Origin: a bacterium
Lineage (GTDB): Bacteria; ARS69
Direction: 5' to 3'
DNA: 5,198 nt
Assembly (NCBI GenBank): GCA_025774865.1
Contig: JALGZO010000617.1
Span: forward strand, 1 to 5,198
In this document: positions 1,726-5,198 of the stretch, piece by piece
How the letters are laid out: every line of letters starts with the position of its first letter
How positions within the stretch are numbered: position 1 is the first letter of the stretch
Notes under the pieces: generated by a model
Database searches by the model: none
What the model saw: only the letters and a program-made list of their open reading frames with translations
Told to the model about the DNA's origin: nothing
Made by a program: the position numbers and the translations under genes

Positions 1726-4700
1726 GTGCACAAGAGTCCACAGCCCGGCTCGCTCGAGCCGACCGGCGAGGCGTTCGTTCACGCCGTCCTCGCCCAGGTA
1801 CACGCCTCCGCCGATCTGGAGACGGGTGCCGCCGCCCTTCTCGATGCGATCCACGGACAGCTTGATGTTACCGGAGGGCTCGTCGCGCTCCGCGACGGGA
1901 ACGTCGGCCGGGTGTTCGCATCCGTCGGGCTTCCTCCGGAGTGGCTCGTCACCTGGAGCCAACCGTCGGAGTCGGACGAGGCGCGGTGGCGGGCGGGCCT
2001 TTGCCAGGAGCCGCTCGACGCGCCGGAACCCGCCATCGATCTTCGTCTGAAACGAAGCGGGGTTCGGGGTGTGCTCACGATTCCGCTGGTCGTGTCGGGC
2101 GGCACCGTGGGCGCGATCGTCCTCACGTCGACCAAGGCGGAGCCCTTCGCCGATCCCGAGTACTTGCCGCTCGCGTCGATCGCGGAGCCGTTCGTCAAGT
2201 GGCTGGTGTCGAAGCTGCCGCCGCCGCGTGAACCGGTGGCGGTCGTGGAGAAGGAGGCCCCGAGGACGACCCAACCGGCCACCCCGCTTTCGGACTCGCT
2301 GGCGACCTCCATCGGGGCCATGGCCGTGGCGACGCTGGACTCCGACGGTCGCTTCCGCGACGTGGGGGCGAGCTTCGCGAAGCTGGTCGGGGTTTCGGAG
2401 GACGACCTGCGTGGGGTCGGGCTGGACGAGGTGCTCGCGGCGGAGGATGCCTCGAGGGCGCGAGCGGCGATCGACGTGACTCGCGAGCGTGCCGCGACGG
2501 TACTGCCGTCCGTGACGCGGCGGCTCGACCCGTTCGGGGACACCGAGGGGACGACGACGATCGACCTCATCCTCAGTCGGCGGGACGAGTCGAGCATCGT
2601 GGTTCTCGGTCTACCGGTCGTGGACGTCCTGGCGGCGGCGGGGGACGAGGCGCCGGCGGAGCCGTCCGACGAGAGTGGAGGGCTCCGGAGCCCGGCCTCG
2701 GGGGTGATGATTCTCGATCGCCGGAAGATCGAGACGTCGAGCCAGTGGCGCCGGTGGTCGGGGGAATTGCTCGCCGTGCTCGGCGGCTCCACGCTCGTGC
2801 TCGATCCGCGCGGGCGCATCGTGGAGCTGGGGTCGGAGTGGCTGTCGGAAACGGAGCCGGACTCCTTCCACTGGCTGGGGCGTCACCTCGGCGACCTGTT
2901 CGAGGAGGACCGGATCGAGGTTCAGGAGGCACTGAAGACGGTGGTCCGCGACGGCGTCTGGAGTGGCCGATTGACGGCCGGGACGTCAGTGCCGGTATAC
3001 CTGCGCTCCGTGCGCGACGACGGGGGAGCGCTCGAGGCCATTGTCGGGGCGCGGCTGCCGGAGAAATCGCTGGAGGGCGGCGACCTCTTCCGGAAGATCC
3101 CGGTGGGCATGATCCACGTCGATCCGGAGCTCCAGATCATGGATACGAACCCGGAGCTGGCGGCCGTCCTGCCCGGGTGCCCTCGGGATGCGAGCCTCAA
3201 GGGCGTCGATGTGAGAAGCCTCGCGGCCTTCCAAGCGAGCCACGTTCAGGAAGCGCTGGAGTCGTTGCCGGAGCGCGGCCGCTTCGACCTATCGGAGGTT
3301 CATCTCGAAGAAGACACGAATGGGCAACCCCAGGCGGCCCGCCCGTCGCCCGTGGTGCAGCTGCACGCCCAGGAGCTCAACGATGGGGATGGCGAGCCGG
3401 TCGGTTTCCTGATCACGGTCATCGGGCGCGACGGAAAGACGCAGCTCGAGAATCGTCTGATCGAAGCGCAGAAGATGGAGTCCATCGGGAACTTCGCGAG
3501 TGGGCTCGCGCACGACTTCGGCAACTTCGTCTCGTTCATTCTCGGCAAGGCCAAGGCTCTCCGGGAGACGCTCGCGGACAACCCGCGGGCGGCTCGGGAT
3601 CTCGCCGACATCGAGGAGGCGGGCAAGCGCGCCCAGCACCTGTCCGAAGAGCTCATCCGGTTCGCGCGGGGTGGGCGGAGTCGCGCATCGAAGCTGGAGC
3701 TGAACGATCTGATCAAGGAAGTCGTCGCTCTCATCAAGACCAGCGTCGGCACCAACATCGACGTGAAGTACGAGCTCGCAGAAGGGCTCGCTCCGGTGGA
3801 AGGCGACGAGGTCGAGCTGCAGCAGATGGTGTTGAACCTCTGCCTGAACGCTCGGGATGCGATGAAGGGCGGCGGAACACTCTCGATGCAAACGACCCCG
3901 CTCACGCCCGAACAGATGGACCTGCTCGGCACGGGGGCGCCCGTGAGCTCGGGCATCTGCCTCGTGATCAAGGACACGGGAGTCGGTATGCCGGCCGAGA
4001 TTCGGGATCACATCTTCGAGCCGTTCTTCTCCACGAAGGACGATCAGCGAAACGGGCTGGGGCTCGCGATGGTGTACGCGATCGTGCGGCGGCACGGAGG
4101 CATGATCGACGTCCGGAGCGAACCGGGCGAGGGGACTTTGTTCGAGGTTCTGCTCCCCGCCGCGACCGACGCGGTTCCCGTTTCGACGAAGAAAGCCCAG
4201 GTCCTGGTGGTCGATGACGAGCTCGCCTTCCGCGAGATGATCCGTCTCATCCTGGAGGAGGAAGGGCACCAGGTGTGTTTGGCGAAGGACGGGGCGGAGG
4301 CATTGACGGTGCTCGAGGCTGACCACGACGAGATCGGGCTCGTCATCCTCGATCTCAGGATGCCGGGCGTCGACGGGTTGAGTGTGCTGCAGCAGATGAA
4401 GTACGTGGCGCCGGAACTGCCCGTTCTCGTGACAACGGGATGGGCCGAACCACACGAGCTGGAGCTCGCCCAGCGGCGCGGGGCGCGCAAGATTCTGCAG
4501 AAGCCCTACCGGGCCGGCGAGTTGCGGCAGGCGATAGCGAAGGTCCTCGCGTCGGAGGCAGGCGAGGCCGCGCCCGGAGAAGCGGTCGAGGCGGAGGCGG
4601 AAGCGGTGCCGGTGGGCGCGACGATCGAGGACGGCGTGGTGGGCGGGCCGGAGGACGGGCAGGTTCGGGCGCAGCGGCGGTGGTCCGGGATCGTCAGTCG

Positions 4701-4824
4701 GCCGGTGCTGGGAGGAGCGCGGCGCGGAGCGGCCGCCGCCGGTGGTGCCGGCGATGCCGCGAACGGGGAGGACCGGGGCGGAGACGGCCCGGCGGCAATT
4801 GACAACGAGGGGCCCGTCGGCTAG
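1726..4824 (+). CDS. Soluble hybrid sensor histidine kinase (GAF-PAS-PAS-PAS-HisKA-HATPase-REC)
   Basis: A 1032-residue two-component hybrid kinase that would autophosphorylate on His and pass phosphate to its own receiver Asp. Domains by eye: GAF 15-164 (GVRGVLTIPLVVSGGTVGAIVL core); weak PAS-like 190-305, 345-450 and 453-570; HisKA from about 573 with H596 in GLAHDFGNF; N-box NLCLNARDAM with N708; G1 box DTGVGMP 750-756; F-box IFEPFFSTK 763-771; G2 region RNGLGLAMVY 775-784; receiver 822-943 with acidic pocket D830/D831, phosphoacceptor D876 (LDLRMPG), T903 and K926 (QKPYR). Catalytic residues look intact. Residues 945-1032 are Ala/Gly/Glu-rich and probably disordered. No signal peptide or membrane segment is seen, so a cytosolic signal is likely. 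GTG 1726 is the only standard start that keeps the GAF domain whole, but its purine-rich GAGAAGG is only 2 nt upstream. The gene lies 119 nt after rplQ. Ligand and output are unknown, and no separate regulator gene is in view. Confidence 0.93.
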   Translation: MHKSPQPGSLEPTGEAFVHAVLAQVHASADLETGAAALLDAIHGQLDVTGGLVALRDGNVGRVFASVGLPPEWLVTWSQPSESDEARWRAGLCQEPLDAPEPAIDLRLKRSGVRGVLTIPLVVSGGTVGAIVLTSTKAEPFADPEYLPLASIAEPFVKWLVSKLPPPREPVAVVEKEAPRTTQPATPLSDSLATSIGAMAVATLDSDGRFRDVGASFAKLVGVSEDDLRGVGLDEVLAAEDASRARAAIDVTRERAATVLPSVTRRLDPFGDTEGTTTIDLILSRRDESSIVVLGLPVVDVLAAAGDEAPAEPSDESGGLRSPASGVMILDRRKIETSSQWRRWSGELLAVLGGSTLVLDPRGRIVELGSEWLSETEPDSFHWLGRHLGDLFEEDRIEVQEALKTVVRDGVWSGRLTAGTSVPVYLRSVRDDGGALEAIVGARLPEKSLEGGDLFRKIPVGMIHVDPELQIMDTNPELAAVLPGCPRDASLKGVDVRSLAAFQASHVQEALESLPERGRFDLSEVHLEEDTNGQPQAARPSPVVQLHAQELNDGDGEPVGFLITVIGRDGKTQLENRLIEAQKMESIGNFASGLAHDFGNFVSFILGKAKALRETLADNPRAARDLADIEEAGKRAQHLSEELIRFARGGRSRASKLELNDLIKEVVALIKTSVGTNIDVKYELAEGLAPVEGDEVELQQMVLNLCLNARDAMKGGGTLSMQTTPLTPEQMDLLGTGAPVSSGICLVIKDTGVGMPAEIRDHIFEPFFSTKDDQRNGLGLAMVYAIVRRHGGMIDVRSEPGEGTLFEVLLPAATDAVPVSTKKAQVLVVDDELAFREMIRLILEEEGHQVCLAKDGAEALTVLEADHDEIGLVILDLRMPGVDGLSVLQQMKYVAPELPVLVTTGWAEPHELELAQRRGARKILQKPYRAGELRQAIAKVLASEAGEAAPGEAVEAEAEAVPVGATIEDGVVGGPEDGQVRAQRRWSGIVSRPVLGGARRGAAAAGGAGDAANGEDRGGDGPAAIDNEGPVG

Positions 4825-4827
4825 TGT
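4799..4827 (+). promoter_or_regulatory. Putative sigma70-type promoter for tRNA-Asn, overlapping the kinase stop codon
   Basis: A perfect -35 hexamer TTGACA (4799-4804) is followed by a 17-nt spacer and TAGTGT (4822-4827). The latter keeps the three most conserved -10 positions (T, A and final T). Transcription would start near 4834 with a GC-rich discriminator (typical of stable-RNA promoters), about 50 nt before the tRNA. The -35 lies in codons for Ile-Asp-Asn of the kinase tail, and the -10 begins with the kinase TAG stop. The -10 matches only 3 of 6, so this is a well-spaced candidate rather than proof. Confidence 0.55.
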
Positions 4828-4883
4828 ACTGCGGCCTCGATTTCGAAACGGCGAGTGGATCATCGCCCGAGGGTTTGCTGCGC

Positions 4884-4958
4884 TCCTCGGTAGCTCAATG
4901 GTAGAGCATGCGGCTGTTAACCGCAGGGTTGTTGGTTCGAGTCCAACCCGGGGAGCCA
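4884..4958 (+). tRNA. tRNA-Asn (anticodon GUU), CCA encoded
   Basis: Full cloverleaf of 75 nt. Acceptor TCCTCGG (4884-4890) pairs with CCGGGGA (4948-4954) with one T-G wobble. D stem is GCTC/GAGC (4893-4896, 4904-4907) around AATGGTA. Anticodon stem TGCGG/CCGCA (4909-4913, 4921-4925) encloses loop CTGTTAA, giving anticodon GTT at 4916-4918. The variable loop is GGGTT. T stem GTTGG/CCAAC (4931-4935, 4943-4947) encloses TTCGAGT. Discriminator is G4955 and CCA is at 4956-4958. It decodes AAC/AAU; the first G of the anticodon is a usual site for queuosine modification. It lies 59 nt after the kinase and probably uses the promoter at 4799-4827. Confidence 0.98.
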
Positions 4959-5003
4959 AACCTCCCAATCGAACTCCACGACGCGGCACGAGAGAAGACT
5001 TGG

Positions 5004-5025
5004 CCGGGGTACGAGCGATCCCCGG
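5004..5025 (+). terminator. Weak hairpin downstream of tRNA-Asn, possible 3' trailer terminator
   Basis: CCGGGG (5004-5009) pairs with CCCCGG (5020-5025) across a 10-nt loop, 45 nt after the tRNA CCA end. The following bases are AAGGCG, not a T-tract; the nearest T run is only TTT at 5044-5046. It may help end or protect the tRNA precursor, but it fails the classical intrinsic-terminator test. Elsewhere in 4959-5105 I see no gene. Confidence 0.25.
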
Positions 5026-5105
5026 AAGGCGCCCCATAGCCCCTTTGATAGCAACGGGATGCGAGGGTGAGTCGGGAAGCGGGAGGCGCGAGAGACGCCG
5101 CGGGC

Positions 5106-5196
5106 TGTTCACCACCTGGCGCGATAGAGCCACGATTTTCGGCCGATTTGCTCGAAACTCTCGGGCTCTAGGCTCTATCCTGCCGAGTGGTGAACA
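5106..5196. repeat. 91-nt imperfect palindrome with 26-nt arms (possible MITE/REP-like element or structured RNA)
   Basis: Left arm 5106-5131 begins TGTTCACCAC and ends GATAGAGCC. Right arm 5171-5196 begins GGCTCTATC and ends GTGGTGAACA. Of 26 opposed positions, 22 are Watson-Crick: blocks of 10, 3 and 9 bp separated by two 2-nt internal sites. Each 2-nt site holds one mismatch and one G-T pair. The 39-nt centre (5132-5170) contains TTTCG/CGAAA (5136-5140 region and 5153-5157) and a GGGCTCTA copy abutting the right arm's GGCTCTAT. The ends are 5'-TG...CA-3', as in many DDE-transposon termini, but no transposase is in view and the window stops two bases beyond, so target duplication cannot be tested. 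It could be a MITE, a REP/BIME-type repeat, a bidirectional terminator or a structured RNA. Confidence 0.7.
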
Positions 5197-5198
5197 AA

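Follow-up and report, generated by a model that had tools for sequence, protein, structure and literature searches.

The long palindrome at the right-hand end of the 5,198-nt stretch of DNA analysed here (the window) is probably one copy of a lineage-restricted, non-coding, dispersed and modular palindromic repeat of the MITE/BOX/REPIN kind, for which we infer non-autonomous spread. We read it as a miniature dispersed repeat because its copies occupy unrelated intergenic sites in two genera, possess symmetric end boxes, are built of modules, are non-coding and have a lower GC content. The unit measures about 100–165 nt and is bounded by the end boxes TGTYCACCAY and RTGGTGRACA; in the related genus represented by genome G002, composites reach about 350–400 bp. 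The repeat appears to form a new family within a familiar class of miniature repeats.

An inverted repeat at the contig end

The window is contig C621 of a MAG (G000; 785 contigs, 4.7 Mb, contamination 8.3%) and has a GC content of 66%. The palindrome is located in the 240 nt of non-coding DNA between a tRNA-Asn (GTT) gene (positions 4884–4958, forward strand) and the contig end at 5198, which falls 2 nt past it. The left arm (5106–5131, forward strand) starts with the box TGTTCACCAC and the right arm (5171–5196, forward strand) has the final box GTGGTGAACA; the arms are 26 nt each, are separated by 39 nt and match at 22 of the 26 positions (85% complementary). We compared this value with those of randomized sequences, and found that, when these 240 nt were dinucleotide-shuffled 300 times, the best 26-nt inverted repeat reached 14–19 matches. 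RNA folding yielded z values of -5.2 with flanks and -6.7 for the bare 91 nt. These results confirm the long near-perfect palindrome recognized in the first-pass annotation, including its two imperfect sites, which are two single mismatches that divide the stem into 10 + 5 + 9 pairs. The repeat has a GC content of 0.56, compared with 0.69 in the neighbouring kinase gene, and a search of Rfam with the palindrome returned no match.

A terminator had also been proposed for this hairpin. The presence of a stable hairpin downstream of a tRNA, together with the position of some G002 copies just past stop codons, is compatible with a terminator or a 3'-end processing hairpin of the tRNA-Asn transcript that resembles the repeats only by chance. 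However, a scan of positions 4700–5198, where the right flank is cut at 5198, revealed no terminator-like site and no T-run on either strand, and the homology among copies reaches well beyond the stem. We therefore regard this explanation as very unlikely.

Copies in the same MAG and in a related genus

The only other significant match in the same MAG was located on contig C778 (513–617), where it precedes a cold-shock (csp) gene by about 240 bp; given the 8.3% contamination, the origin of C621 and C778 from a single organism is not certain. The full homology extends over window positions 5033–5194 and C778:457–617 (81% identity), and therefore the unit begins at least 73 bp to the left of the palindrome and is larger than the 91 nt (5106–5196) first assigned to it. 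As far as it is visible, the repeated unit occupies positions 5033–5198 of the forward strand, its right end being cut by the contig end, so that neither the right boundary nor the 'TG...CA termini' proposed earlier can be judged from the window copy alone.

Using a sequence model (R1) built from three copies, we detected further weak matches in G002 at contigs C276, C270 and C248 (E 2e-4 to 2e-3). These three loci exhibit 77–83% mutual identity over about 280–313 bp. In total, G002 harbors four copies, all intergenic, three of which are 79–85% alike, and the core of the window copy (5090–5198) is homologous to all four. The C270 copy is located between a beta-propeller-like ORF and an apparent tilS, the C248 copy some 380 nt past a beta-propeller ORF, and the C276/C169 copy beside a kinase-TPR gene. 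Contigs C276 and C169 share an overlap of exactly 114 bp and probably represent a single locus. Four G002 contigs end inside the repeat or at most 20 nt from it, and the window likewise stops just past the palindrome, as would be expected if the repeats break the assembly.

The G002 modules are bounded at opposite ends by TGTYCACCAY and its complement, and the box is seen in both orientations. The order within a composite is CTGTYCACCA, left module, TGTCCACCAC, hairpin, GTGGAC, right module(s) and GTGGTGRACA (396 bp in C270), and the sequence of the right module opens with CGGGACCCCGGAG. When the C270 repeat was used as the query, partial modules emerged in G002 at C37, C244, C205 and C169, of which those at C244 and C205 are possibly just cut by contig ends; the remaining four genomes of the phylum yielded nothing up to an E value of 0.01. 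The modules are separable, as the left module occurs without the hairpin in C37 and the right module occurs alone at C169:7991–8049. The right-type module is present twice in C270, and the C778 copy appears to continue as a right module in degenerate form (the match to C248 across a region that includes this module has E 3e-7). At positions 3370–3509 of C270 (L147), the box TGTCCACC stands in direct order with 63-bp spacing and the tandem modules are 71% identical.

An array of boxes might also serve for protein binding or recombination, for example as an attC-like site of an integron or as a cluster of replication-initiator boxes. The 10-bp box does recur in both direct and inverted arrangement, with 63-bp spacing in C270; against this, whole modules are conserved, beyond the boxes alone, and neither the core boxes of attC nor the DnaA box appears to fit TGTTCACC/GGTGAACA. 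We regard such a site as very unlikely, and the dispersed repeat is the preferred reading.

Conservation of pairing and distribution

We aligned the six copies (alignment A4, 54–85% pairwise identity) and analyzed whether the arms remain paired. RNAalifold, with no structure supplied, recovered the window stem, with four pairs changed on both sides. When the 24-pair stem was imposed on A4, 77.8% of cells were paired, compared with 34.7–43.8% for slid versions of the stem and 73.0% for shuffles, none of which reached the observed value (0/500). The covariation score of the stem was reached by 5 of 500 shuffles; the count of covarying pairs alone was not above shuffles (232/500 reach it). Thus, the arms stay paired through paired changes across copies, and the structured element put forward in the first-pass annotation survives this comparison. 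The pairing support across the family is good but not overwhelming, six related sequences being few. It appeared only once the G002 copies were added: the window and C778 alone gave no covariation support, with 28 of 33 pairs kept where 27.1 were expected (P 0.28). Significant inverted arms were observed in the window and three G002 copies, weakly in C778, and not in the fourth G002 copy, on contig C149; the latter two, both upstream of csp genes, also fold poorly (z -1.1 and -0.7). A palindrome kept as DNA, for recognition of its ends, would yield the same pairing pattern as one kept as RNA.

A covariance model built from A4 (R2) was searched against 60 genomes, comprising the five genomes of the phylum (G000–G004) and 55 from other phyla. 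It recovered the six loci and the C169 end of one of them, in G000 and G002 only. Under the stricter filters used, with which weak copies can be missed, nothing else credible was found in G001, G003, G004 or the 55 other genomes (next best E 0.18, the reverse strand of the window aside), and the viral contigs searched contained no match to the repeat. The palindrome is thus not single-copy, with one further copy in its own MAG and four in G002, and among the genomes searched the repeat is restricted to two related genera.

Several other candidates were rejected. Pattern-scan matches in genome contigs lacked the second arm; a DNA match in G001 (E 1.9e-4) covered only the left arm and lay in apparently coding sequence; and the strict paired-box pattern TGTTCACC..GGTGRACA found the window and one match in G004 resembling chance.

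The tRNA-Asn and cold-shock gene context

The position beside a tRNA gene, to which the first-pass annotation drew attention, holds for the window but appears incidental, since no tRNA gene was seen beside any other located copy. One pattern match to tRNA-Asn was found in each of G000, G002 and G003. The element is absent after the orthologous tRNA-Asn in G002 and G003, where the DNA is otherwise unalignable and offers no clean empty site.

The gene order in the window is rpoA-rplQ-histidine kinase-tRNA-Asn, and that in G003, a third genus, is rpoA-rplQ-tRNA-Asn-csp. On the reverse strand of G003:C32 (731–2876; L062), these genes all run in one direction, the csp leader follows the tRNA by about 50 nt, and a promoter-like site (TTGACT-17-TAATGT) occurs only upstream of tRNA-Asn; judging from this arrangement, tRNA-Asn and csp may form a tRNA-mRNA co-transcript. 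A similar arrangement precedes tRNA-Asn in the window, where TTGACA-17-TAGTGT (4799–4827) overlaps the end of the kinase gene and scores below the promoter-scan threshold. In G004:C402 (922–941; L063), a 19-nt exact match to the 3' end of tRNA-Asn, without a tRNA gene, stands just upstream of a csp leader and looks like an integration remnant at tRNA-Asn. A tRNA beside csp does not hold as a general rule: across other genomes, 1 of 26 csp loci had any tRNA nearby (tRNA-Gln). No csp gene is visible in the window; given the synteny with G003, one just past position 5198 is plausible.

We compared the regions upstream of csp genes with the element. The DNA just upstream of the csp leader in G002:C149 aligned to the window element with a score of 33 (shuffle maximum 21), and from the right edge of the element onward C149 and C778 share 74% identity across the csp leader and coding region. 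The two copies sit at equivalent positions in front of csp, and the DNA in between is homologous; this points to shared ancestry of the pair rather than to recent insertion. The csp upstream regions of C507, C13, C22, C257, C682 and C238 exhibited no similarity to the element above shuffles. Ten csp loci of the phylum share the conserved leader proper (alignment A3: L019:745–867, L061:2188–2310, L055, L056, L057, L058, L060, L062, L063 and L053), which contains the hairpin GCGGGA..TCCCGC and the long-range pair CGAGTAGTCGG / CCGACGATTCG; A3 contained no covarying pairs.

The main rival explanation is accordingly that the palindrome functions as a cis-regulatory RNA within the long 5' leader of an off-contig csp gene transcribed together with tRNA-Asn. 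The shared position of the C778 and C149 copies, the G003 gene order, the tRNA-Asn fragment before a csp leader in G004 and the conservation of the leader proper in several loci all agree with it. However, the element is missing from most csp loci of the phylum, no csp gene follows the copies at C270, C248 and C276/C169 in the stretches read, and the stem is weak in precisely the two csp-linked copies. The window shows no csp, and this explanation covers at most three of the six copies; it was dropped as the sole explanation once three G002 copies were found away from csp, and we consider it unlikely. It can hold together with the preferred reading of a mobile repeat if a repeat that landed in front of csp was retained.

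Comparison with known repeats and leader RNAs

Similarly to the BOX elements of Streptococcus pneumoniae (PMC3049150), the repeat is intergenic, non-coding, modular and of variable length, with predicted stem-loops and modules that are absent or repeated; its mosaic of separable modules with variable copy number is apparent at C37, C169 and C270. In contrast to BOX, its sequence is probably unrelated, its host is GC-rich and few copies were seen, and its module order and mobility are putative. Bacterial MITEs (RUP, ERIC and Correia/NEMIS; PMC2229807) likewise have a unit below 200 bp, terminal inverted repeats and a highly paired, intergenic sequence encoding no protein, and the repeat resembles them as a short non-coding element with dispersed copies whose terminal inverted repeats and paired fold are evident in the window and three G002 copies. 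The repeat differs from them in that its termini carry no TA. No target duplication was obvious at the C270 and C276/C169 flanks, and no IS with matching ends was found among the ORFs scanned near the G002 copies; at 56% GC in a 66% GC window, the repeat is GC-poorer and not AT-rich in absolute terms. REP/REPIN sequences (PMC3116915, PMC3733652) are also extragenic palindromes that can form clusters and inverted pairs. However, REPs are 20–40 bp long and tagged with GTAG or CGTC at one end (PMC3733652), whereas the repeat is 91 nt or more and neither tag is found at its ends; no RAYT was found among the neighbouring ORFs scanned.

The likeness to the cspA 5' UTR thermoregulator (RF01766; PMC9947658) consists of the two copies upstream of csp genes. 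The RF01766 covariance model did not match window positions 4950–5198. Its match on C778 (753–1125), the only Rfam hit in L019, spans the leader of csp and its coding region, lies downstream of the element and falls short of the gathering score.

Mobility and significance

We infer that the repeat transposes. It may spread, or may once have spread, as a non-autonomous element, with a transposase supplied in trans that would recognize the symmetrical ends or the hairpin. When transcribed, the repeat would form a stable hairpin, which may affect the neighbouring mRNA. The non-autonomous mobile repeat suggested in the first-pass annotation is supported in part: the sequence is multi-copy, its G002 sites are unrelated and intergenic, and its arms pair. 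On the other hand, the copy number is low (two in G000 and four in G002), no autonomous element with the same ends was found near the G002 copies, and no clean empty site after the orthologous tRNA-Asn of G002 and G003. Target duplications were not obvious at the flanks of C270 and C276/C169, the right flank of the window being cut, and no transposase was present among the selected ORFs near the G002 copies.

A bolder combination, which we regard as unlikely, would be that a new lineage-specific modular mobile repeat bounded by TGTYCACCA was taken into csp leaders, perhaps within a tRNA-Asn-csp transcript, which would have turned a parasitic hairpin into a cis-regulatory RNA within this phylum. 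The dispersed repeat itself adds a family with a conserved, covarying palindromic structure for a sparsely sampled phylum (five genomes), and the TGTYCACCA box motif provides a handle for seeking the enzyme that mobilizes the repeat. The copies upstream of csp genes make it possible to ask directly whether miniature repeats are co-opted as leader RNAs.
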